Shown here piece after piece: positions 1 to 28,070 of a stretch of DNA of 32,216 nt (within the stretch, counting starts at the first letter, position 1; every line of letters starts with the position of its first letter). The notes beneath the pieces are model-generated. The model searched no databases. It was given only the letters and a program-made list of their open reading frames with translations, and had not been told where the DNA came from. Position numbers and translations under genes: made by a program. The DNA is from a virus. The stretch spans positions 1 through 32,216 of the IMG/VR virus record IMGVR_UViG_3300025960_000014, one strand, 5' to 3'.

Positions 1-3000
1 CTGCCTACAGACGAAGGAGCAGTAAAGATCCCGTCAGAGTCAGTACTGTCTTTAAGCAACGACAACTATAGGCTACAGCTTAATCCTAACCATGATGCTT
101 ATGATAAGGTGGCTAACCCGACACAGTTAGGATACTTCCTGAATGTGATGCATAAGCTGACAGATGCAGGGGCACCTAATATCGAAGCAGCTAACCAGGT
201 ATATTCCGCCATTGCAGAAAAAGTAACCCGGGGCATAGCCCGGCTCTCCCAGAACTCACTGGATAAGCAGGGTAAGTTTACAGCTGGTTCGATCATCCGT
301 ACCCTTTCCGGGGTAGGTAACGAGCGTATCCAGGAGATGCTCAAGTCAGGGATTAACTATAACTTCCCGAATATAGCAGACAAGGCCCTCATCCAGATGG
401 CCAATATTACTTCCAAAGGAACCGTGAAGATCAAGTTCCCTGGAGGTAAGATGGTATTGCAGAGTAGTTATGGCGCAGATATCCCATCTGAGATCCCTAG
501 GGGACAGGACGAATTCTGGAGCAGGTATGGCCAGGATGTAAGCAGTGCCCTGGATCATCCAAGAAGACTGGAGTATAAACAGGATCCTGCTACCGGCAGG
601 TGGCATGCAGAAGTGATCCTGCCAAAGATTTATGCGGATAAAGCAAACCCGGGGGACTTCCTGACCGGGGATATGATGGGTTTCCGTATCCCATCGACAG
701 AACTGCATAGCTCAGTACCCCTGAAGATAGCTGGCTTCTACGATGATAAAGGCTCTAACGTAGTGATCGCACCTGCCGAGCTAGTGGCCCAGCATGGTTC
801 TGACTTTGACGTGGATAGCTTGTATACCATATCCAGGGAGCAGTCCTCCAAGCGACTATGGCGCCAGGATGGTACGGAAGTAATCGATAAGGGGCACCCG
901 GTAGGTTACTACAGGGAAGCGGATGACAGTCTGAAGTTCAACCCGGACAGGTTCCGTGCAGAACTGGACCGTCACCGGATTGAGTATGCAGGAGATAAAG
1001 GCGTACTGGCAGACGTGGAAAAGCTTCACGATCAGCTACTGAACAATATTGTTACCGAGTCCTTCCTGGATACCATATCTCATGAGAGTAACCGGCAGCG
1101 TATGCTGACCCCGATCTCTACCGACGTGATCGATAACAGCTTTAAGGAGCTGGGAATCAAGCCGGAACTGAACCTGAATACTTCCAGGATCCTGGATAAT
1201 ATGAAGATGTTCAATTCCAACTTCCAGGGGGCAAGCTTAGTAGGTGTATTTGCTAATGGCATGAAAGCGCTAAGTTATATGTCCCGTGCCGGTAAGTCCG
1301 AAGCAGGAGATGAATACCCACAGTTACAGGGAGAAAATCCGGGCATTACTCTAGGGGACAAGACCTACGATAAGTTCACAGAACTGGACCATACAGGCGG
1401 GAATATGTGGAGTGAGCTGGACGCACTGGTGAATACCTCCGTAGATAACGTGAAGGACCAGAAGCTTTACCTGATGAATGCTACTGACCGCACCGGGGGC
1501 GTATATATCGCAGCCAAAGCAATAGGTATGCCACTAACCGATGCGATGCGCCTAATGCTCCAACCGGTGATTAAACGCTATTCTACTATAGATGGTGGCA
1601 GATCTACCGTGCTAAATAACCTGAAGGCAGAGATGGCAGAGCATGCGGTAAAGCTTGGTCTGCTGGAAAATGCCAAATATTCGGATATCGAGATGGAACT
1701 ACAGGGCAGGGAACTACCTAAAGCAGAATCCCTCTCCCCTAAGGTTCTGGACAAATACCTGAAGGCTAACAGCTTCGGGGAAACGATAGAGGAATTTAAC
1801 CACCAGTTCCATGTATTGAAACAGTTCGAGCGGTTAGTAAAGATCGGAGATGATATTACAGACTTCTCCCGGGCAATCTCTATTGTACAGGATATGCCGG
1901 TATTCTACCAGGATATTGCTACCAAGCAGGATACCTGGAACAAGATCGGTACAGTAACAGATGGTAAGTTCTATACTTCGGATCAGTTTAGCTTTAACCT
2001 GGATAGACTGTTCGAGGCACAGCCGAATATCGCTGCAGCCTACGATACTTTCCAGTGGATGAAGAAAGGGATAGATACTTCCCTGATCAAACACTTCCCT
2101 GAAGTGCAGTCCCTGGCTAAACAGTTGGATAGATCCATGAAGATCAAGCTGGCCGGAGACCAGAATAAGAATGTGGAGCTACTGAAGAATGAGGTAATGA
2201 GTTATCTGGTCTCTTCTTACTACAGTTCAGAACTACAGAACCAGGAGCCGGTAACCGTATCGGGAAAGAAATCCAAGAACGAGCGGATAGTAACCGGGAA
2301 AGTCGCCTGGGGCCAGCAATTCGCAGACCACATCTCCCAGGTTCTGGCAGAAGATAAGAAGTTAGCAGATAATGACCAGAACCCGTTCCTGAAACGTATT
2401 GCAGTAAAAGACAGGGGCTATGGAATTAAGACCCTGGAGTTTGCCAATACTTCCAATCCTACCGCGGAAGAATCTGTGGAGATGCAGGATGGCTTCTCTG
2501 CTATTAAGGGTGAAAGCCTGAAACAGGACCTGGTAAAGTATGCCGCCTTGAACTATGGGATGAGCTTTGGCGTAAGGAACTACTCCATGTTTATTCCTTC
2601 AGAGTACCTGAGGCCGCTTTCAGATTTTATTAACCGTGACCTGAGGGATAAGGTACAGGCCTCCAAGCTGGATGAAGAAGGCACGCTGATCTCTGGCCCG
2701 TTAAAGCACCTGGCAGATAACCTGGCTATCAAGCTGGCGGTAAACAATATTGACCGGTTGCCATATATTTCCTCGAAGAAGATACAGCCTATCCATACCC
2801 TGGACGAGAACGGACAGCCTAAATACACCAGTATTGGTAACGAAGCGGTAGCAGTACATTCCGGTTATGACGGGGAGTACTACTGGAACCAGGCCTATGA
2901 GAACCCGGTAGTAAAAGAGAACGGGGACCGTAAATACTCCGAAGATGACCTGCCACAGTTTATCCGCAGGAGAGAAGGTGGTATCGAACGAGGGAGAGAT

Positions 3001-6000
3001 GTTGCCTATATCCGGGTAAATGATGTAGACAGTGATAAGGTATACTACCAGAAGCTGGGCTACAAGAACTTTGCCGGGGGCTATGACGGCGCAGACAGGG
3101 CCATCGATGGTAACTATGCTATAGAGGATTACTTTGGCAAAGGAACTATCCCGGTACCTGTTGCAGATATCCGTACCGGGAAGTATGAGACTTATAACGA
3201 GCATATCAAACCAGGCCAGCATGTGATCATTTACCCATACTCTAATGAAACCCGGGAACAGGGGATCTCTGGAATAGTAGATAAGGTAACAGAAGGGCTA
3301 GTAGATAAAACCAAGAAAAGTTTTACACTAGTTCCTAACACTGTGGATAAACCTAATACACCGGACGAGGTAGCAGCTATTACAGCCATTGCGACAGATG
3401 TGGCTAGTAGGTTTAACCTGGATCTGCACATTGCCGAAGGTGCTGCGGGTGGTAAGAAAGGCTCGATCTATGGAGACCGGATCAACCTGGATCCAAGACT
3501 GATGACCAGGGACACGCCCTTCCATGAGATAGCGCACCCATTGGTGGCAGCTATCCAGCAGAATAACCCGGGCTGGTATCAAAGTTTAAGCACAGAACTT
3601 AAAGAAAGCCCTGAAGGCAGGATACTCCTACGTAGGGTACAGGCAGCCTATCCTGAGCTGACCAGTGTTGCACAGGAGCGAGAAGCCCTGGTAACTGCTA
3701 TAGGCCAGGAAGCTGCTGGTAAACTAAAGGAGGGTAGTTTCAGAACCTTAGTGAGAAGGTTGATGAGGTCTGTAGGTAACCTGGTTCGTCAGGTTCTGAC
3801 CAAACTCAAAGGAGGAGAACCACTGACTATTAAGGACCTGGCCAATGAAGATATGGTTAAGCTAAGGATTGGGGATATTGCTGATATCCTGGCTAATACC
3901 AAAGTAAAGCTGGACCTGAGCAGTGTCCAGGATGACGTGCAGTACTCCAAGGACCTGGATAAACCAGATGGTATCATAGAGAAATTACTGGCTAACCAGG
4001 ATAATATCAAGGATCCGGAAATCGATATCAATGGCAAGCAGGGAGATACCTATAAGGTAAACGGAGATATTCTGCCCCGTATTTCCAGGGTAATGGACAA
4101 CTTCACCTTCCGTAAGAAACAGGAGTATACCAACCCGGACGGCTCTACCATGAGTTCTGAAGATGCGATCGCCAAGCGGGACGCTGACCGGATGTTCCGG
4201 AATACGCCTCCAGGTGGGAAGCTGATCATTGACGGAGTAGAAATGGATAAAGCTACTTACCAGGAACAGAAGAAGAAACTGCAGTTACAGGGGCAGCTTA
4301 AAGGGGATATCATCCATGCCCAGTTACAGCGGTTCTTTACTATGGATCCGGCTACCAAACTGGAGCTTACCAAGAAGATAGAAACCCTGGCTGCACAAAG
4401 CGAAACCAGGGCAGATGCTTATAATTGGATTACCGACAAGAAAGTCCTTTCCAAGGTTCTGGACAATGCGGGTATTCATGTAGGGGATAATGTTCCTGAG
4501 AACCAGCGAGACCGGATTTACTCCGAGCTTAAGGTAGCGTCACCAGAGATTGGGGCAGGTAAGATCGACCAGTTAGTAGTAAGACCTGACAACAGGTTAA
4601 AAATCGTAGACTGGAAAACCGGTGCAAGACTGAAAGATAAGTATACTTCTAATATCATGAAGTATGGCTTGCAAGAACACCAGATCACGGATAATCCGCT
4701 AGACCGTGCCAAGTTGCAGGTAACGCTATATGCCTTAATGGTTAAAGCAGAACACCCGGAAGCGAAGTTTGACGGATTAACTGTAATGCATATCCCGAAT
4801 GAGTATGAAGCTACCCAAGGCAGGAATGCACTAAACGTAGAAACAAGCGATTACTTGCGGATGATTGAGCAGTACTACAGGAACGAAGAGCCAGCTAAGT
4901 ATAAATCCTTACTATCCAAGTCTCCTAAGCTGTTTGACCCGAGGGAGTACAATGCCCCAAGAGATGCAGACTATACCCAAGATGTACTGAATTCCAATGG
5001 AGCTTCCGAAGCAGAAACCATGCAGAGCTTAAGACTGCAACTGCAGAAACTGGTAACTACAGTAGAGCTCCGTAAAGCAGAAGACAGTTCTGAAGAATGG
5101 ACCCGGGAAGAAAGGCTGACCAGGGATCGCCTGATGAAGAAGATCCTGCAGGGTAGCAGCCTAATCCCGGTAGATTTCTCCGGGGAACTGGATTCCAAGT
5201 ACGAGATCTCTACAATGACCCGGTACCTGGCTAACCTGAATGATACCCATAATCCCTATATACAGACTTATGCTTCTATGCTAAATGCTGGTAAGGAGGC
5301 TGCACGTGCAGAGTTTGATACTAAGCAGAGGGAGTTTAAGAGACTCCTTGGTGCAGTTCTGAAAGAAAAGGGCATGAACCAGAACTTACTAGAAAGATCT
5401 GTGGCCTGGGTAAATAAGGAGAAGGTCTTCCAGAACCTATGGAACGAGAAGGAGACTATAGATCCGGATACCGGTACCAAGTACCTGGAACGCGGCTTGA
5501 CTGTAAAGGGAGATGAGAAATACAATAAGCTTTCCACCGCAGAAAAGGCACTCTCTGATTATATGGCTAAGGAGATGAAAGATATCTTCCATGACGTAAT
5601 GGTAACAGGTAAGAATGCTATCGTAGGAGAAGATACCAGGGGTAACCCTATAACCAAGCTGGGCTTATATAATAAATCCAGAAGAGGTGCTGCCTTTGAG
5701 TATAAGGATAACTTCGTTCCCCGGGTAGCGATTACTCATGAGGAAGTATTACAACGGGCTACCCGTAACGGCCTGTCTGGTATAGCTGCTTATGGAAAGG
5801 ATCTATTCCTACGGCATGTAACAGACTACTTCGAGAATAATATAGAAGGGTATAACCAGAAAGACTATGGCTTACCAGTACGTTTCCTGGGGAATGCCAA
5901 TACTTATGCTTCTCCGGACAGCTACTCGATGGATTTACAGTTAGCCTTTGAGAAGTACATGGAACAGATGATCAATAAAAAACACCTGGATCATAGCTGG

Positions 6001-7575
6001 GTAGCAGGACAGGCCCTGAAGGGTTACCTGGAAACCCGGAACGACATGAACGGCCAACCAGCATTCAAGAATGCAGCCGGTTTCCTGGACTTCCAGATTA
6101 ATAATATCCTGATAGGTGACAGACTTCTTCGTGGTTCTGGAAAATTAACTCGTCAGGGAATGGCTGTATACCGTAAGGATGGGGAGAACTATAATATCTC
6201 CCCGGTAAAGATCTACCGTTCCCTGAAGTCAGGCTTTGCTGCTTCTACTCTATGGTTACAACCTGCACGGAGCCTGAAGAATGCGATCCAGCTAGAGTAT
6301 ATGCAGGGGAAAGAGGAACTGGTAAACGGGATCCTGAGAGGCATTAAAGGTACCAATACCAAGGAACTGGACCTTTCTCCAAAGAGCATGGTAGCTAACT
6401 ACAAAGAGGCTATGGGTAGCCAGTTCACCCAGTTAACCGGTAATACGGATACGGACTTTATACACCAACTGGCTAAAAAGCTAAGGTTATATCCTGCGAT
6501 GAATGAGATGGGAATCTCCCCGTCAGATTCGATGACCAGGGGAGCAAGGCTATTATCTACCCATAACTTTGCCTACCTGTACCAGATGCCGGAAGAGGTA
6601 GTGAACGTACAGTATGCTTTAAGTTTCCTCAAGAACCTGAAGGTGGAAGGGGGGAAGTATGCAGGAAAATCTATGTACGAGATGTACAAAAACTCCTTTG
6701 ATAAAACTACAGGAGAGTTCAAGCTTCCTGCCGACTTTACCCGGGGTAAGATCCAGCTGCCGGATGGTACCTTCGATACCTTATCCGGTCTGCACCCGAT
6801 GGAAGTACAGAAGATCCACAGGGGAATAGCCAAGCTACAAGGCGGGTACCGTTCGGATGAAAAGACTGCTGTGCAGGCTACCATCCTGGGAGATGCCCTA
6901 ATGATGTTCAAACGCTGGATCCCGGGAATGCTGGTAAACCAGTTTAAGAGCAAATACGAGGACCCGTCTATAGGTCAGTTTGAGAAGGTAATGGACAGCG
7001 CCGGCCAGCTGAAACAGCGTGACGGGGAAGATGTCTACGAGTGGCGGGCACGGGTAGTAGAAGGCAGAGCCAAGGTAATGGGCAGACTGATCATGAACTA
7101 TATGGGCATGGCTAAGAACTCCGGTTATAACTGGGGGGATCTTTCTACCGAACAGCGTAAATCTGTAATCGACTTTAGTGTAGCACTGGGAACCTGGGCT
7201 TCTATGCTCACGATGAGTGCAGCTTTACTGGGTAAACGGAATGAAAAGGATACCTTAAAAGAGTTCACTACGGAAATGACCGGCAGGCTATTCGAACAAT
7301 GGGCAGTACCAGTAATGGCAGACTCTGCCCTGCAACCTCCGGCTGTAGTCAAAAAGAGCCTGGAGATAGGTAAAGGCTTCTATGCTTTGCTTGCAGGGGG
7401 AATAAACGAAGCGGTAGGCGGTCCGGACGAGCAAACCTACACGAATAAAGGTGACCGTAAAGGAGCTTCCCTGATAGAGAAGAACCTGCCATTCTCCTCC
7501 AGCCTGTATGAGATTAACAAGGATAGAGAGAACGCGGACAAGGATACCTTCTGGGATGAGGTAAATCCCTTTTAA
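1..7575 (+). CDS. Giant virion RNA polymerase polyprotein (crAss-like), C-terminal 2,524 residues; 5' end outside window
   Basis: The frame is open from base 1, so the gene starts upstream; the GTG at 109 is internal. Near the left end, nt 667-729 encode a GFRIP..ELHSSVPLKI segment followed by HGSDFDVD (DFDVD at nt 802-816). This matches the double-psi beta-barrel metal motif of YonO/crAss-like single-chain RNA polymerases. A glycine-rich KIKFPGGKMVLQSS stretch (about nt 424-465) may be part of the other barrel. Further on are HEIAHP (nt 3523-3540) with a downstream EREALVTAIG, a gluzincin-like Zn-peptidase signature, and a PD-(D/E)XK nuclease: GDIIHAQ (about 4303), GKIDQL...IVDWKTG (about 4558-4623), QVTLYAL (about 4717). 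The C-terminal ~900 residues have no motif I can name. In crAss-like phages such proteins are packaged in the virion and transcribe early genes after injection; that role is inferred here by family. Processing by the internal peptidase is possible but not shown. Confidence 0.85.
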   Translation: MPTDEGAVKIPSESVLSLSNDNYRLQLNPNHDAYDKVANPTQLGYFLNVMHKLTDAGAPNIEAANQVYSAIAEKVTRGIARLSQNSLDKQGKFTAGSIIRTLSGVGNERIQEMLKSGINYNFPNIADKALIQMANITSKGTVKIKFPGGKMVLQSSYGADIPSEIPRGQDEFWSRYGQDVSSALDHPRRLEYKQDPATGRWHAEVILPKIYADKANPGDFLTGDMMGFRIPSTELHSSVPLKIAGFYDDKGSNVVIAPAELVAQHGSDFDVDSLYTISREQSSKRLWRQDGTEVIDKGHPVGYYREADDSLKFNPDRFRAELDRHRIEYAGDKGVLADVEKLHDQLLNNIVTESFLDTISHESNRQRMLTPISTDVIDNSFKELGIKPELNLNTSRILDNMKMFNSNFQGASLVGVFANGMKALSYMSRAGKSEAGDEYPQLQGENPGITLGDKTYDKFTELDHTGGNMWSELDALVNTSVDNVKDQKLYLMNATDRTGGVYIAAKAIGMPLTDAMRLMLQPVIKRYSTIDGGRSTVLNNLKAEMAEHAVKLGLLENAKYSDIEMELQGRELPKAESLSPKVLDKYLKANSFGETIEEFNHQFHVLKQFERLVKIGDDITDFSRAISIVQDMPVFYQDIATKQDTWNKIGTVTDGKFYTSDQFSFNLDRLFEAQPNIAAAYDTFQWMKKGIDTSLIKHFPEVQSLAKQLDRSMKIKLAGDQNKNVELLKNEVMSYLVSSYYSSELQNQEPVTVSGKKSKNERIVTGKVAWGQQFADHISQVLAEDKKLADNDQNPFLKRIAVKDRGYGIKTLEFANTSNPTAEESVEMQDGFSAIKGESLKQDLVKYAALNYGMSFGVRNYSMFIPSEYLRPLSDFINRDLRDKVQASKLDEEGTLISGPLKHLADNLAIKLAVNNIDRLPYISSKKIQPIHTLDENGQPKYTSIGNEAVAVHSGYDGEYYWNQAYENPVVKENGDRKYSEDDLPQFIRRREGGIERGRDVAYIRVNDVDSDKVYYQKLGYKNFAGGYDGADRAIDGNYAIEDYFGKGTIPVPVADIRTGKYETYNEHIKPGQHVIIYPYSNETREQGISGIVDKVTEGLVDKTKKSFTLVPNTVDKPNTPDEVAAITAIATDVASRFNLDLHIAEGAAGGKKGSIYGDRINLDPRLMTRDTPFHEIAHPLVAAIQQNNPGWYQSLSTELKESPEGRILLRRVQAAYPELTSVAQEREALVTAIGQEAAGKLKEGSFRTLVRRLMRSVGNLVRQVLTKLKGGEPLTIKDLANEDMVKLRIGDIADILANTKVKLDLSSVQDDVQYSKDLDKPDGIIEKLLANQDNIKDPEIDINGKQGDTYKVNGDILPRISRVMDNFTFRKKQEYTNPDGSTMSSEDAIAKRDADRMFRNTPPGGKLIIDGVEMDKATYQEQKKKLQLQGQLKGDIIHAQLQRFFTMDPATKLELTKKIETLAAQSETRADAYNWITDKKVLSKVLDNAGIHVGDNVPENQRDRIYSELKVASPEIGAGKIDQLVVRPDNRLKIVDWKTGARLKDKYTSNIMKYGLQEHQITDNPLDRAKLQVTLYALMVKAEHPEAKFDGLTVMHIPNEYEATQGRNALNVETSDYLRMIEQYYRNEEPAKYKSLLSKSPKLFDPREYNAPRDADYTQDVLNSNGASEAETMQSLRLQLQKLVTTVELRKAEDSSEEWTREERLTRDRLMKKILQGSSLIPVDFSGELDSKYEISTMTRYLANLNDTHNPYIQTYASMLNAGKEAARAEFDTKQREFKRLLGAVLKEKGMNQNLLERSVAWVNKEKVFQNLWNEKETIDPDTGTKYLERGLTVKGDEKYNKLSTAEKALSDYMAKEMKDIFHDVMVTGKNAIVGEDTRGNPITKLGLYNKSRRGAAFEYKDNFVPRVAITHEEVLQRATRNGLSGIAAYGKDLFLRHVTDYFENNIEGYNQKDYGLPVRFLGNANTYASPDSYSMDLQLAFEKYMEQMINKKHLDHSWVAGQALKGYLETRNDMNGQPAFKNAAGFLDFQINNILIGDRLLRGSGKLTRQGMAVYRKDGENYNISPVKIYRSLKSGFAASTLWLQPARSLKNAIQLEYMQGKEELVNGILRGIKGTNTKELDLSPKSMVANYKEAMGSQFTQLTGNTDTDFIHQLAKKLRLYPAMNEMGISPSDSMTRGARLLSTHNFAYLYQMPEEVVNVQYALSFLKNLKVEGGKYAGKSMYEMYKNSFDKTTGEFKLPADFTRGKIQLPDGTFDTLSGLHPMEVQKIHRGIAKLQGGYRSDEKTAVQATILGDALMMFKRWIPGMLVNQFKSKYEDPSIGQFEKVMDSAGQLKQRDGEDVYEWRARVVEGRAKVMGRLIMNYMGMAKNSGYNWGDLSTEQRKSVIDFSVALGTWASMLTMSAALLGKRNEKDTLKEFTTEMTGRLFEQWAVPVMADSALQPPAVVKKSLEIGKGFYALLAGGINEAVGGPDEQTYTNKGDRKGASLIEKNLPFSSSLYEINKDRENADKDTFWDEVNPF

Positions 7576-22265: not shown

Positions 22266-23456
22266 TTACAGCGCATTCTGCTCTTCAACCAGTGATTGAG
22301 CTTCTTTGGCTTTCTCCTCGGCTGCTTCAATAGCTGCCTTACGGAACTCTGTCCATTCAGCATCAGTCATTGAAGAGAAGTGACTGGAATGGTAGATACT
22401 GCGGTTAATACCAGCATTTGAACTATGCACATAGTACCTGCGTACACGCAGGGCACCTGAACCATCATCAGTAATGGCACCTATGTCAGAGGGGTCAATA
22501 AAGATATTATGAGTAACAGTACCTGCAGTTTGATAACCTTTAACATAATCTCTGTTACCTGCATGGAGTCCCGGTACACAAGAGATACGGTCGTCGGTAT
22601 TCACCTGCTCCCATTTCTCCAGTTCTATTACCCGGCCAACTTTGATAAAGTGCTTCAGTTCACCTTTCTTTAGTTCCTCGCCCTTCTTTAGCTTGGTTAG
22701 CTCATAGCAGTAGAATGGATCTCCACCATTCAAACCTTGTACTGCAGGATAGAAGATACGGTCCTCTACATGCTCAGGCAAAGCTGCAGGAAGCTTTTCA
22801 CCAGTATCCTCATCGAAGCCGGCGCCATAACGGTCTGCCTCTTTACCGGTTTCCTTATCAAACTTCTTCAGGAGTTCCTTAGATACTTTATAGGTACAAA
22901 GTAATCCCTCCATCGTGATCGGGGTCTGGAATACGGTAGCTCGTTGTATAGCTACTTCTGAAGTTACACCTTTCTTGGTTTCCAACTCGGCTTTCAGACC
23001 CCAGTCAATAGTAGTCTTATTGACATAGTTGGCCAAGCGCCGTGCTTTGGCATCTGAATAATGCGGATTACGCAGGAAACGGGTCCAGAACTTAACGATT
23101 GGAAGGAAGTCTATCCCTTTCTCTACCGAGGTCAGGATACGGTCAACCAAGGGTTGTGGTACAGGACGAGAAGAGATCGTTACCCCATCAGTAGTTTTCA
23201 GGTAGAACTTCCCGGTAGCCTCGTTAACTACCAGGTTAGGACAGGCTGTTTCCACTATGTCCTTATAGCCTTCTTCGGTAAGTAACAGGAACTGGTCTAC
23301 TATAGCCTGGAGAGCAGTCATAGAGACAGCCTGGTTAGCCTCAGCTTCCAGGCGTTTCATCTCCTTATACTTCTCCTCAGAGTAGTTCACTCCAAAGCTC
23401 TTACCGTTTACAGAGCCGGTGATTGCATTGTCAATGCGATTTACTGTAATCATCAT
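22266..23456 (-). CDS. rIIB: rIIB-like protein, 396 aa
   Basis: The C-terminal part carries the pattern of the T4 rIIB C-terminal domain: ISCVPGLHAGNRDYVKGYQ (about 291-309), then HNIFIDPSDIGAITDDGSGA and LRVRRYYVHS (about 316-345). The middle (DFLPIVKFWTRFLRNPHYS, about 117-134) also fits rIIB-like phage proteins. It follows an rIIA-like gene by 14 nt, as in T4. In T4, rIIA and rIIB act at the membrane and overcome exclusion by the lambda Rex system; a similar anti-exclusion role here is inferred. Two adjacent ATGs (23456, 23453) are possible starts. A terminator follows. Confidence 0.75.
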   Translation of the reverse strand: MMITVNRIDNAITGSVNGKSFGVNYSEEKYKEMKRLEAEANQAVSMTALQAIVDQFLLLTEEGYKDIVETACPNLVVNEATGKFYLKTTDGVTISSRPVPQPLVDRILTSVEKGIDFLPIVKFWTRFLRNPHYSDAKARRLANYVNKTTIDWGLKAELETKKGVTSEVAIQRATVFQTPITMEGLLCTYKVSKELLKKFDKETGKEADRYGAGFDEDTGEKLPAALPEHVEDRIFYPAVQGLNGGDPFYCYELTKLKKGEELKKGELKHFIKVGRVIELEKWEQVNTDDRISCVPGLHAGNRDYVKGYQTAGTVTHNIFIDPSDIGAITDDGSGALRVRRYYVHSSNAGINRSIYHSSHFSSMTDAEWTEFRKAAIEAAEEKAKEAQSLVEEQNAL

Positions 23457-23470
23457 TTTGATTTAAAGGG

Positions 23471-26185
23471 TTACGCCTCAATTATTACTCCAGGATCAGC
23501 TACCTGAGGCACTGGCTGCTGAGCTGGTATACAAATATAACCTTTAAGGTCCAGGTACTCACGTATTTCCTGTTCCACAGCATGGGTTATTTCACGCTTT
23601 TCTACCAGGCAGTTCACCTGGTTTAGTAATGGCTGTACATGTTCGGTAACTTCCAGGAGCATTTGTAGTTTTTCATAGATCTCCAGTTCCACACCTAAGG
23701 CATCCTCGAAAGAGTTTTCCTCATTGGTCTCGAACAGGGCCTTACTCTTAGCTGCAATAGCCTGTAAGTTACCAGGGTTCTTGGTAACGAATAGCTGAAG
23801 CTCAGTTACTTTATCTGCAAATAGCTCCAGGTTCTGGATCAGCTCTATTCCGCTACCATCTTTATGGTTGGCCATTTCCCCCTTCAGGTCTTTATAGTTT
23901 ACCCGGACGTACTCAACCAGTTCTTGCCAGGTATTACTAGCTATCGGGTCAAATATTCCGAAGTTCTTCAAGAACTGGAGTGAAGGGCGGCGCTGCTGGA
24001 TCTTTCGGGCAGTCTGCCATTTTACTAATTTGTTGTGCATAGATATAGTCTTTGTTTCAGGATTAAAACTCATGAAGAAATCATCGATAAACAGGTGAGG
24101 CTTCAGATACTTGGCATTGGACTGGGAAACCATCATGATCTTCAGCTCATCATTCCAGAGAGAATCTTCATCCATGTGCTTTAGTGTATCATTATCAGCT
24201 ACCCACTTGCCAAGTAATTCAGCAGCCAGACTTAGATTAGCTTCATCTTCCTGAAAGCCATAAATGATTAGCCCTTTGTCCTGTAAGATCTCCTTAATCT
24301 TTGGTTCTCTTTTCCTACGATATATCGGATACCCTCTATTCTGGTAGTAAAGCCCATAAAAACTATTACAAACCATCCGGTTCTCCAGTGCTCTTAGCTC
24401 AGCAGGAGTCAAGTTAGACTTTACTTCCTCGATGGCAGCTTCTGTATCCTCGTCCTCTTCTTTCTCATTAGCACGGAAGTCCTCTGGCACTACGATACTC
24501 TCATAGAACTCAGTGAACTTGCTGTCCCGGAGAAGCTGATCTACTAATTCCTGGTCCTGTTTGAACTTCTTAAACTGCAGATCCAGTACCTTATCCCTGC
24601 CTTCCTGGTCAAGCTTCTTCCATTCATCATAGCTCATTTCTACCAGTTCCAGCTCTTCTTTGCTTAGCTTTTCCGGATCCTTGAATACGGCTCTTCCCTT
24701 AGGGATAACCTTGATAAAGCCATGTGGATAGACAGTGAGCATAAACATTTCCTGGCGGAAATAAGTATCCCCTTCCTGGTAGAAGATCTGCTTGCCATTA
24801 ACCTGTCCCCAGTTATGCACCATGTTCCTGGATAGGGAATTAATATTCACTCCCTTGGCCTTGGAATACTTGACAGTCTTAGTTACCTCTACCACGTCGT
24901 ATCCCGTAAACAGCTCACTTGGGTTCTGGGAGAACTTAATCTTAGGCAGTGGCTTGAACTTTGGCTTGATGGACTTCAGCTCTACGATATTGCTGAACCT
25001 ACCGATCACTGAACCTTTATCCATCCCGCCTACGGCAGTAGCTGATTTAAGCGCCCAGTCGATCAGGTCATCCGATACCAGGGCAGCATTCAGTAGTTTC
25101 TCAGCTATATGCTCCCCTTCTTTAAAAGTGGAATGGATAGCTTCCCTGGTCTTCTCAGTCCATCTCACGGACTCCCGGTTCATGGTGATATCTACCAGGG
25201 ATGGATTGATCTTCATCCCGATATTACCTACCCGCTCTTCCTCTTCCAGCATCAGGAAATTTACGTACCCATAACAGATCCCGTTTAGGATCAGGTGTGG
25301 TTTGGAGTAGTAAGTACTTTCCTTAGTAGGCATCACGAAGATGTCATCTTCATACTCGATCTTAGCCTTTACTTCCTGTTCCAGAACCTGACCATCTTCA
25401 TGGATCTCGAATTTGATCCCATCCAGGTAAAGCAGCTGGCTCTTTACAGCCTCAATGAAGTCCTTCTTCAAGCCCTTCTTGGCCTGCAATATGACCTCTA
25501 CTCCATTTGGTTCTGTGGTAGGATAGTAATGGACCTTCAGGTTCTCCTGGGTAACCATCTCATAGAAAGGGTTTTCCTCTCCGGTAGTCAGGTTAAACCG
25601 GGGAACAATAGAATCCACCTTGTAGCCATAAACATTGAAGTGAAACTCCATCCCGTTATACCGGGTAATCAGGCCATAGTACGGAATATCCAGTGCCAGT
25701 CCTGCTTTGCTCCCCACTCCAAATTTACCCAGGTCATCCTTGGAATTCCGCTTGGTAGAATAGAGTGGGTTAAAGTGCTTTTCTAATCTCAGCCCTCCCA
25801 GACCTACACCGGTGTCAATAATATGGAAAGTATCCCGCTGGGCATTATTATTTACCTTGTAGATTAGCTGGATCTCGTTCCTGGTCTTGCTAAGCCACTT
25901 CTCGTTATAGTAGGATGGATCATACTTGCTATCCTTGAATAGCTCTCCGTCCCGGTCAATATAGAAATCTTCCACTTTGGCCTTACCTGAGTTGATCAGG
26001 AAGAAGCGCTGCTTCTCATTAATACTATCCCTGCAATTGGAGACAAGCTCCCGGATAGCTGATGGGATCGGGTATTGATACTGATACTGCTGAATAAAAT
26101 CGAATAAGATGGACTCAGACCCTTCAGCAAAAGTCTTTTTAATCCCCCCAGTACCTTCGATGGCTGGGACTTCTAATATTGCCAT
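23471..26185 (-). CDS. rIIA: rIIA-like GHKL ATPase, 904 aa
   Basis: The N-terminus is a Bergerat-fold ATPase of the GHKL class: N-box RELVSNCRDSINE (E46, N50), G1 box IDTGVGLGG (D124), and G2 box LGKFGVGSKAGLA (about 152-163). The long remainder is mixed alpha/beta with an acidic patch (EKEEDEDTEAAIEE) and a helical C-terminus, without membrane segments. Adjacency to an rIIB-like gene supports the rIIA assignment over gyrase- or MORC-like proteins. The ATG at 26185 lies 5 nt after the homing endonuclease stop. Its first 16 residues are mirrored by a stub on the far side of that endonuclease, suggesting that the N-terminus was rebuilt after an insertion. Confidence 0.75.
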   Translation of the reverse strand: MAILEVPAIEGTGGIKKTFAEGSESILFDFIQQYQYQYPIPSAIRELVSNCRDSINEKQRFFLINSGKAKVEDFYIDRDGELFKDSKYDPSYYNEKWLSKTRNEIQLIYKVNNNAQRDTFHIIDTGVGLGGLRLEKHFNPLYSTKRNSKDDLGKFGVGSKAGLALDIPYYGLITRYNGMEFHFNVYGYKVDSIVPRFNLTTGEENPFYEMVTQENLKVHYYPTTEPNGVEVILQAKKGLKKDFIEAVKSQLLYLDGIKFEIHEDGQVLEQEVKAKIEYEDDIFVMPTKESTYYSKPHLILNGICYGYVNFLMLEEEERVGNIGMKINPSLVDITMNRESVRWTEKTREAIHSTFKEGEHIAEKLLNAALVSDDLIDWALKSATAVGGMDKGSVIGRFSNIVELKSIKPKFKPLPKIKFSQNPSELFTGYDVVEVTKTVKYSKAKGVNINSLSRNMVHNWGQVNGKQIFYQEGDTYFRQEMFMLTVYPHGFIKVIPKGRAVFKDPEKLSKEELELVEMSYDEWKKLDQEGRDKVLDLQFKKFKQDQELVDQLLRDSKFTEFYESIVVPEDFRANEKEEDEDTEAAIEEVKSNLTPAELRALENRMVCNSFYGLYYQNRGYPIYRRKREPKIKEILQDKGLIIYGFQEDEANLSLAAELLGKWVADNDTLKHMDEDSLWNDELKIMMVSQSNAKYLKPHLFIDDFFMSFNPETKTISMHNKLVKWQTARKIQQRRPSLQFLKNFGIFDPIASNTWQELVEYVRVNYKDLKGEMANHKDGSGIELIQNLELFADKVTELQLFVTKNPGNLQAIAAKSKALFETNEENSFEDALGVELEIYEKLQMLLEVTEHVQPLLNQVNCLVEKREITHAVEQEIREYLDLKGYICIPAQQPVPQVADPGVIIEA

Positions 26186-26190
26186 ACTTC

Positions 26191-26790
26191 TTATGTTTTA
26201 AATTTCCAAATGTAGCCACTAGCATGTGGCCTTATATTATGAAGGGACTTGGTGATGTTACTAATTCCTGGAACCCTTTGAGCTTCTGTAACCGAGTCCC
26301 AATGACGTATGAAGTTACCTTCTAGATCATATTGAGAAATAGCCATCCATTGCTTTCTACCAACCTTGGCAGCATGTTCCTTAGACTTAGGGACTCCTTT
26401 CTGTGAGTCAGAGAGCAGCTTACGTGTATAGTCACTCATTGGAGCTTTAGGCTTTTGGGGTCTTTCTAGTTTACGGCCTAAGGAAGACCCTGCTTTAGGG
26501 CACATATTGTAACCATACCTTTTATCAGCCGACTGCATCATATTAATCCACCATTGCTCTGTACTAACACAGAACTCAGGTTCTACACAGTCCAGAATAA
26601 AGAACTCGAAGTTATCTTCTCCATACTTATTAAAGGCCCTTTGTAGATAAATTGAGTGATGCTTGTTCTTCCTAAGCAACTTCTGATGGTAGAATCCTCT
26701 ATCCTTTAAACATCTGGCAGAGGATCCAATATAAACCTTATGATTTACCAGGTTTATAATCATGTATACACCGGTTAGATTTGATTTCAT
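26191..26790 (-). CDS. GIY-YIG homing endonuclease with NUMOD motifs, 199 aa
   Basis: The GIY-YIG nuclease domain is at the N-terminus: GVYMI (7-11) and KVYIGSS (18-24), R31, KYGEDNFEFFIL (55-66) and a likely catalytic E78 in TEQWW. A NUMOD3-like segment (MSDYTRKLLSDSQKG, about 118-132; PKSKEHAAKVG) and a NUMOD1-like helix-turn-helix (ISQYDLEGNFIRHWDSV...GYIWKF, about 151-197) follow, the usual DNA-recognition tail of SegA/I-TevI-type enzymes. It would cut an endonuclease-free allele and spread by repair. It is inserted between the 78-aa gene and rIIA; no intron core is evident in the 33-nt and 5-nt flanks. Confidence 0.85.
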   Translation of the reverse strand: MKSNLTGVYMIINLVNHKVYIGSSARCLKDRGFYHQKLLRKNKHHSIYLQRAFNKYGEDNFEFFILDCVEPEFCVSTEQWWINMMQSADKRYGYNMCPKAGSSLGRKLERPQKPKAPMSDYTRKLLSDSQKGVPKSKEHAAKVGRKQWMAISQYDLEGNFIRHWDSVTEAQRVPGISNITKSLHNIRPHASGYIWKFKT

Positions 26791-26823
26791 ACTGTAATAT
26801 ACAAAAAAGTTACTTGTATAAAG

Positions 26824-26877
26824 TCATAACTTGAAGCCTGATTCCCCTTCTGTTTTTGGTTGTTCAAGTATTGCCAT
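26824..26877 (-). pseudogene. Truncated rIIA N-terminal stub (17 codons) left of a homing insertion
   Basis: ATG at 26877 reads MAILEQPKTEGESGFK, then L and TGA. The intact rIIA gene begins MAILEVPAIEGTGGIK: 10 of 16 residues and 27 of 48 bases match. The stub's ATG overlaps the end of the 78-aa gene by 14 nt, a start arrangement like other overlaps in this block, which suggests this was once the native rIIA start. The frame then breaks at the point where the endonuclease cassette begins. Alternatives are a short leader peptide or chance; the shared residues from position 1 favour a duplicate. Confidence 0.6.
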
Positions 26878-27100
26878 AGTCTTTAGTTAAGTCCCAGCTG
26901 TGACTGGGATCTGGTATAAAACAAATTGAGGTTCTCCACTGATAGCCTTCTTGTCCAGTTTTATGAGATTGATCTCCCTGGTATTCTATCACATCATCAG
27001 TAGACATAACTAACCAACCACCGAATACTGCAGCTCTATTAAGATAATTAGAGTGTTCAGAGAATATCTTTTCCCATTTTAGCTTAGTTAATTCTGCCAT
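26864..27100 (-). CDS. Small conserved-looking protein, 78 aa
   Basis: A 78-residue protein rich in aromatic residues: LKWEKIFSEHSN, AAVFGGWLVMSTDDVI, and WRTSICFIPDPSHSWDL. The GGWLV...FIPDP.H.W pattern is one I associate with small phage proteins of unknown role, but I cannot name the family. It starts 4 nt after the ThyX stop. Its last 14 nt overlap the rIIA-like stub. There is no catalytic motif or membrane segment. Confidence 0.6.
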   Translation of the reverse strand: MAELTKLKWEKIFSEHSNYLNRAAVFGGWLVMSTDDVIEYQGDQSHKTGQEGYQWRTSICFIPDPSHSWDLTKDYGNT

Positions 27101-27104
27101 AGCT

Positions 27105-28070
27105 TTACTTCTTTAATAGTCGTGGATCTCTTCGGTTTTCATTCTCGAACATCTTCCGGTACTGGATAAACCCCCGGAAGTTACCATACCAGCCGAGCTC
27201 CATTTGTTGAGTATTAAAATTAAATCTGGTTTCTGATCCTTCAAAATCTGTTTGAGACATAGCTCTAGTACAATGCTCAAATGCTGACCAGTGACCTGAG
27301 GAAGCCAACCTATCATGTAGTTCTAGGTCAGCTGTATAGTTGATCTTCTGTTCAGAACCTGGAGTAACGTAGGAGATACGGGCACAACGAACTGTAGCGA
27401 GCTTAACCTGAAGATCATCAAGTACTGGCTGAAGATCATGTATAGAGGGAGCGAAGTCAGGCTTAAACTTTGTCAATTGATAATGAGCTATAGAAATTAA
27501 CTGTTCATTGTCAAATTGATCCCCAAATGGTATATGCCATTCTCCAGCTTTCAGTAGCTTCGGCTCTGAGGCATTACAGGCATCCAAATACTTATAAGCC
27601 AGCTCCTGTAGATGTACCTCGGCCATATCCTCAGCCCGGAGAGCAAAGAAATTCTCCAGTTCTGTAGCTGTGATAAGAGCTGTGTGGTACATAAAAGGCT
27701 CTAAATATCGATTACAAAGTTGCTTAGTTACTCCTAATTTATTAAGCCTAGTAGCCTCAGCTATGGCATTATCTCTAGCAGATAGCCAATGATGAACTAA
27801 GTTCTTTATATTAATTTCTTCCTGAGTAAAATACTCAGTTCCCTGCATTCCGGTATGGTCTCTTTGCCACTTTTTAGGTATAAATGGGTTCTTCTGAACC
27901 GACTCTACCATCCTCTCGAACCGGATAGCTCTACTAGAAGCTGAGTTCCTGGAGAGCATCCTGTGAGTGTTGATCTCGGCTAATAAATAGCGAGGGAAGG
28001 TGCAGATTGCTGAGATGCAACGCTGCCCAAATTCATTTTTGCTATCGCAAATTATCTTGACGTCCGTCAT
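27105..28070 (-). CDS. thyX: ThyX-like flavin-dependent thymidylate synthase, 321 aa
   Basis: The ThyX signature RHRxxSxNxxSxR appears as THRMLSRNSASSR (residues 35-47), with Thr in place of the first Arg, a variant I recall among phage ThyX-like proteins. A second conserved block, CNRYLEPFMYHTALITATEL and NFFALRAEDMAEVHLQELA, matches the FAD/dUMP-binding helices. The C-terminal ~70 residues (HWSAFEHCTRAM and NFRGFIQYRKM) also fit. The expected reaction is methylation of dUMP to dTMP using methylene-tetrahydrofolate and FADH2, feeding the adjacent dNMP kinase. A variant activity on another deoxynucleotide cannot be excluded. It starts 3 nt after the kinase stop. Confidence 0.85.
   Translation of the reverse strand: MTDVKIICDSKNEFGQRCISAICTFPRYLLAEINTHRMLSRNSASSRAIRFERMVESVQKNPFIPKKWQRDHTGMQGTEYFTQEEINIKNLVHHWLSARDNAIAEATRLNKLGVTKQLCNRYLEPFMYHTALITATELENFFALRAEDMAEVHLQELAYKYLDACNASEPKLLKAGEWHIPFGDQFDNEQLISIAHYQLTKFKPDFAPSIHDLQPVLDDLQVKLATVRCARISYVTPGSEQKINYTADLELHDRLASSGHWSAFEHCTRAMSQTDFEGSETRFNFNTQQMELGWYGNFRGFIQYRKMFENENRRDPRLLKK

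Follow-up and report, generated by a model that had tools for sequence, protein, structure and literature searches.

A likely start-restoring homing cassette at the rIIA locus of a metagenomic phage and similar layouts in other phage genes

Gene order and features of the rIIA locus

The window analyzed here is the whole stretch of 32,216 nucleotides of IMG/VR virus record IMGVR_UViG_3300025960_000014. Read along the minus strand, the locus under study consists of a 78-aa gene, a short stub, a GIY-YIG endonuclease gene, rIIA and rIIB (Table 1). The stub ORF (26877-26824, minus strand) reads MAILEQPKTEGESGFKL with 17 codons to the stop; it shares the reading frame of the endonuclease, whose ATG follows 33 nt after the stub ends. 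The rIIA ORF begins at 26185 with MAILEVPAIEGTGGIK, and the gene that follows it matched PHROG RIIB at 8.7e-10. The primase upstream was ~30% identical to primases of Crassvirales and Flavobacterium phages, and from this relatedness we infer that the window probably comes from a phage of Bacteroidota.

Table 1 Features of the rIIA locus in the window.
Feature	Position	Strand	Basis or remark
Upstream gene, 78 aa	26864..27100	-	ORF; shares 14 nt at its 3' end with the original rIIA start
Stub, native rIIA codons 1-16	26830..26877	-	Translation; 48/48 nt identical to the L001 rIIA start
Spacer, 39 nt	26791..26829	-	One frame reads YDFIQVT, resembling rIIA codons 28-34 (FDFIQGT)
Free-standing GIY-YIG homing endonuclease with NUMOD1-like C-terminus, 199 aa	26191..26790	-	Pfam, PHROG
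Foreign, recoded 5' end replacing rIIA codons 1-34	26084..26185	-	Matches L001 at 65/102 nt
Restored full-length rIIA, 904 aa	23471..26185	-	PHROG RIIA 4.2e-11; 95% amino acid identity to L001/L002
Tract differing from L001	23310..26185	-	Ends in rIIB codon ~49; three-way alignment

The endonuclease met the criterion of a GIY-YIG catalytic domain (Pfam 2.9e-05, 24.7 bits against a cut-off of 22.6) and matched PHROG 314, a homing endonuclease family, at 4.7e-30; the NUMOD1 match was weak (Pfam 0.016). When aligned with its relatives, which are present in many crAss-like phages, the GVY...YIG, R and E positions line up. Gene splitting of the MobE/nrdA type could be excluded, since the rIIA of the window is full length and has its own start.

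A group I intron would offer a different account of this arrangement, in which the stub is exon 1 and is spliced to rIIA. GIY-YIG enzymes are often intron-encoded, and a related phage (L218) has an rIIA split by two endonuclease-carrying group I introns. However, Rfam gave no match in the window at gathering thresholds and nothing credible over 25900-27200 at E<=1, although the same library detected the introns in the L218 rIIA and in another locus (L078), which served as positive controls. A chance snoRNA match in 25900-27200, on the opposite strand and far below its threshold, was rejected. The hallmark of a mobile group I intron, a conserved RNA core around the endonuclease, was thus not met for the window. 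Moreover, just 39 + 5 nt of DNA between the stub and rIIA lie outside the endonuclease ORF, and splicing is unneeded as rIIA has its own start. We consider the intron explanation very unlikely.

In L218 itself (2523-5635), the two introns interrupt rIIA at the GHKL ATP-binding region and carry a GIY-YIG ORF and a second endonuclease-like ORF. Taken together with the cassette of the window, these introns would therefore make rIIA a gene targeted more than once by homing elements, which have settled there in two different ways.

Comparison with endonuclease-free rIIA loci

Two IMG/VR contigs (L001 and L002) encode RIIA proteins 95% identical to that of the window. Both lack the endonuclease, and in both rIIA begins with MAILEQPKTEGESGFKKKFEEGTEAILFDFIQ exactly at the position of the stub. 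Upstream, L001 and the window showed 11 differences in 3 kb, with zero in the nearest 566 nt and in the 48-nt stub; the two sequences diverge exactly after stub codon 16, and they are the same again over 3.7 kb downstream of the differing rIIA tract. The 78-aa upstream gene is identical in L001. In L002 its place is taken by an unrelated 71-aa ORF (5799-6014) with the same 14-nt overlap with the rIIA start, and because that start is unchanged despite the unrelated upstream gene, the stub is part of rIIA, not of the gene before it. In three more distant contigs (L011, L014 and L015; 29–34% identity), rIIA likewise lies directly after the upstream gene without an endonuclease, and the proteins begin with MAI and keep the QYQY motif. 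A native relic beside the endonuclease that matches empty-site relatives is one criterion of a mobile-ORF element, and it was met here. The insertion in this rIIA is known from a single contig. Direct tblastn of rIIA against annotated phages gave no match, and scans of genome contigs for a relative found none.

The first-pass annotation had taken the stub for the old start of rIIA, on the basis of identity with the present start in 10/16 residues and 27/48 bases and of the 14-nt overlap of the stub ATG with the 78-aa gene. These values held on recount, as did all its other coordinates and counts. The resemblance is not due to chance, as endonuclease-free relatives use the stub sequence as their real start. 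The prediction that such relatives would begin rIIA at the stub, overlapping the upstream gene, was borne out in L001 and L002, and the outcome named as refuting it, a conserved unrelated 17-aa leader in endonuclease-free relatives, was absent.

Two further explanations bear on these comparisons. The stub might not be a relic but have a function, as a short leader peptide or translational coupler, and its frame and its distance from the endonuclease ATG would make re-initiation possible. However, the same bases are rIIA codons 1-16 in the endonuclease-free relatives, and stubs elsewhere go with the recipient and not with the cassette, which leaves this explanation unlikely. Alternatively, since the window is a metagenomic virus record, the locus might be an assembly chimera of two phage strains. 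This is very unlikely: both sides of the window match the single strain L001 over kilobases, and the same layout is present in the phage PhiCrAssBcn14 and in many independent contigs.

Codons 1-34 of the window rIIA differed from L001 at 37 of 102 nt (64% DNA identity), and beyond codon 34 there were only single differences at nt 120, 138 and 177 and none on to nt 365. The join between this diverged 5' end and native-like rIIA lies near codon 34/35, immediately ahead of the conserved QYQYP motif, and a second criterion of mobile-ORF elements, a replacement end fused in frame and more diverged than the relic, was met. In this order of native stub, endonuclease and foreign start, the native-like codons continue the foreign start, and the rIIA ORF is intact. 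The first-pass annotation had placed the entry of the endonuclease about 16 codons into rIIA. This must be amended, as the clustered differences end at nt 102 (codon 34) and the foreign segment exceeds 16 codons; the element probably inserted originally at codon 34/35. The suggestion that the two copies are old or come from different phages also needs correcting: the junction is recent, because the stub DNA is identical to L001, and the diverged partner is the donor allele.

The spacer between the stub and the endonuclease may be a remnant of the donor's own stub. Its YDFIQVT frame was matched in score by 178 of 20000 dinucleotide shuffles, of which 44 also ended at codons 33-35, and we regard this evidence as suggestive only. 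If the remnant is real, the insertion would possibly have been at codon 34/35, with a stub that has since lost codons 17-27, a reading that is equally no more than suggestive.

The rest of rIIA is a mosaic relative to L001, about 94% identical up to position 23310, and we could not decide whether this tract is one long conversion tract or a separate exchange. One block at about codons 580-680 (window 24146-24445) reached only some 74% identity to L001/L002, much less than the remaining gene.

Similar layouts in other phage genes

An ORF-like duplication across the endonuclease (E<1e-4) was present in 14 of 156 endonuclease loci with enough flank. Control ORFs (about 338, with five endonucleases that have YVG instead of YIG excluded) gave one clean duplication, a tandem paralogue (L242), plus a few low-complexity matches. 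Four survey or control matches (L194, L237, L238 and L252) proved on inspection to be GC-rich or low-complexity translations. Flank repeats in L078, L079, L081 and L083 were also set aside, as L078 has two group I introns there and the other three have the same repeat. Besides rIIA, the host genes, named by Pfam/PHROG, encode an SF2 helicase, a GH19 endolysin with the insertion before the catalytic HET, a primase with an antisense endonuclease and the insertion in the zinc finger, a spore-photoproduct-lyase-like radical SAM protein with the insertion before CxxxCxxC, and two unassigned proteins of 304 aa and 76 aa. In the window and the helicase loci compared below, Rfam found no intron. A mirror image of the layout was seen in L200 (2644-3944) and L201, where an upstream 101-aa gene is intact with a restored C-terminus and the relic of the native one lies downstream of the endonuclease. 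Similarly, in the phage tikkala (L030, 1509-2508), which has an HNH enzyme, the C-terminus of a glycoside hydrolase is foreign; the HNH ORF ends in the native C-terminal codons, which match crAss001 in 61/66 nt. Empty-site comparisons exist only for rIIA, two helicase sets and tikkala.

Two cassettes contained additional small ORFs. In the primase cassette, a small ORF that looks ribbon-helix-helix-like by eye adjoins the antisense endonuclease (L061:2839-2997), and in L042 (1354-1581) a 75-aa Cys-rich ORF, zinc-ribbon-like by eye, lies between stub and endonuclease.

The SF2 helicase of an environmental phage group, reached through a scan of 80 endonuclease loci, gave a further set of comparisons. 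An adjacent endonuclease was present in 10 of 76 loci, nine of them with enough upstream sequence, and a stub was found in 9/9 of these assessable loci versus 0/66 of the others. The loci are not phylogenetically independent and represent about three cassette lineages and five recipient alleles. The stubs were identical or nearly identical to the start of endonuclease-free relatives. Between L114 and L118, for example, the stub matched in 77/78 nt, the restored codons 1-27 in 53/81 and the following 400 nt in 399/400. The cassettes of L151 and L153 were 99% identical (844/853 nt), with an identical new 5' end (51/51), and their recipients differ: upstream DNA was not alignable position by position, and downstream DNA was 89% identical. 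L178 and L187 have the new end in common and different stubs. Stubs track the recipient and not the cassette. The cassette of L178 also carries a tRNA gene (1685-1807) between stub and endonuclease.

In Crassvirales, the SF2 helicase of cr112_1 (annotated as HKD nuclease) shows the same layout, with the stub MDRKQAQEEIMNIKSNAILCELPTS followed by a stop, the endonuclease and the restart MDRTEIQKEILEIKSQSILLQLPTSFGKS. The empty sites of crAss001, cr106_1, PhiCrAssBcn22 and tikkala have no GIY-YIG gene there, and at the position of the stub their helicase begins with MNREQAQEEIMNIKSNSILCELPTSFGKS or a sequence very like it. The insertion falls within the Walker A motif. PhiCrAssBcn14, whose record lists the host Bacteroides intestinalis DSM 108646, has a near-native stub, an endonuclease reduced to its C-terminal half, and a foreign start; from helicase codon 22 its DNA is the same as that of crAss001 over at least 150 nt more, and nearly so over the rest of the gene. 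We infer that it represents the expected decay stage, with the endonuclease degraded and the new end retained. In this phage (L029, 2117-2572) the foreign ATG is now ATA, and the annotated start lies inside the endonuclease remnant. A DnaB helicase of the Kolpuevirus 'frurule' (L020:2730-5023), which a GIY-YIG gene splits into 60 aa and 345 aa, counts as a split gene and not a restored one, being without a restored end.

Across nine cases, stub and restored end were identical in 56–78% of bases and, except in one (14/27), in 54–85% of residues, and the longest exact run common to both was 6–14 nt. Identical residues were often encoded by different codons, and differences were commonest at third positions, a pattern suggesting that the protein was constrained and the DNA free.

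An ordinary intergenic endonuclease and an unrelated recombination that swapped the 5' end of rIIA, with the stub as an accidental leftover, could in principle produce the same picture. In favor of this explanation, these phages show mosaicism all along rIIA, and endonucleases at exchange boundaries are known (PMC10448857). Against it stand the 9/9 versus 0/66 association in the helicase, and the foreign segments of PhiCrAssBcn14 and L114, which stop at the insertion point with near-identical DNA beyond. We therefore regard a separate swap as unlikely. That the same layout occurs in other phage genes, with near-identical cassettes in divergent recipients, is shown by the sequences. The first-pass claim that the endonuclease arrived with a replacement N-terminus is supported, and independent cases whose empty sites are near-isogenic lend it further weight. 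The layout recurs and forms a class, so it is not a one-off; "self-healing" is supported as anatomy and history, and as a mechanism it remains likely and unproven.

Proposed mechanism and relation to known systems

We propose that the window likely contains a start-restoring homing cassette; cutting, homing and rIIA function are inferred, and there is no cleavage or homing assay. In this scheme, the endonuclease would cut conserved DNA of the uninterrupted gene, and break repair would copy the cassette together with the replacement end; in the window, a GIY-YIG gene and a diverged rIIA 5' end would have been copied into the 5' part of rIIA in an L001-like phage. Because the replacement end is recoded, the restored gene would escape recutting, and stub and restored copies would seldom recombine to excise the cassette. 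A close copy, by inference, would be cut by the endonuclease or recombine with the stub, ejecting the endonuclease. The host operon may supply translation of both the endonuclease and the restored gene, whose ATG would overlap the endonuclease stop or sit a few nt past it; there are no transcript data. Later decay would remove the endonuclease and leave the new end, as envisaged for PhiCrAssBcn14.

Several observations count against the cassette. With 16 codons, the stub of the window falls short of the 34-codon foreign segment, and the left junction is not a clean insertion, so a stub deletion or illegitimate join must be assumed. The mosaic elsewhere in rIIA (codons ~121-904) means that the foreign 5' end could possibly have come separately. 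Finally, most survey cases lack an empty-site comparison.

A bolder reading, toward which we lean only slightly and as a whole, is that natural home-and-rescue drives with a recoded start form a widespread class in phages. These would target conserved motif DNA near the gene start (RIIA QYQY, helicase Walker A, GH19 endolysin HET, the primase zinc finger and radical SAM CxxxCxxC) and would be harmless to the host, self-immune and able to replace gene ends across strains. The cassette accounts for an intron-less homing endonuclease inside a conserved gene without destruction of that gene, and it would also account for the diverged, mosaic N-termini of some phage genes and for short orphan ORFs annotated before endonucleases. 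Its specific predictions are testable in cultured Bacteroides phages.

Reviews exist of gene-splitting and intergenic phage endonucleases (PMC2988022) and of the closeness of such enzymes to essential genes (PMC10448857). The stub/restored-start layout is not described in the relevant sections of either paper, and no phage precedent for gene-end-restoring cassettes was found in the open-licence literature searched. Like T4-type Seg and Mob enzymes, the endonuclease of the window is a free-standing GIY-YIG enzyme at a conserved phage gene, and those enzymes spread with co-conversion of flanks (PMC2988022). However, they lie between genes and cut a neighbor at a distance, and no stub or replacement end has been described for them. 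MobE (Aeh1 nrdA) and MobA (T4 gene 60) likewise lie within conserved phage genes, but their hosts stay split into two polypeptides, whereas the gene of the window is made whole by the supplied end. SGI1-type integrase islands are also alike in that they insert at a gene end and supply the lost codons; they differ in relying on a site-specific integrase with attachment repeats that are nearly identical, where the cassette has an endonuclease and a recoded end.

The closest natural counterparts are the mobile-ORF elements of fungal mitochondria, which replace gene ends downstream of the insertion (PMC3630166, PMC7315562) and have produced gene hybrids of Allomyces atp6, of Glomus atp6, atp9, cox2 and nad3, and of Tremella cox1, nad4 and others. 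In both systems an endonuclease element brings along a diverged substitute for one of the ends of the gene it targets, and the native end persists as a relic beside the endonuclease, with empty-site relatives showing that the relic is native (PMC3630166, PMC7315562). The fungal elements replace the C-terminal side, a criterion that the N-terminal replacement of the window does not meet and that among the phage cases is represented by L200/L201 and tikkala; the other phage cassettes bring a new 5' part, start codon included, in several gene classes. Gene-end restoration is thus known from fungal mitochondria, and the start-restoring form in phages is without precedent in the open-licence literature searched. 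Engineered HomeR drives share the design of a homing nuclease in a needed gene with the re-coded missing end as rescue (PMC7968924), and differ from the window in being synthetic, CRISPR-based, placed at the 3' end of a gene and built in Drosophila. The comparison suggests that phages may have evolved a recoded-rescue design before gene-drive engineers devised the same.
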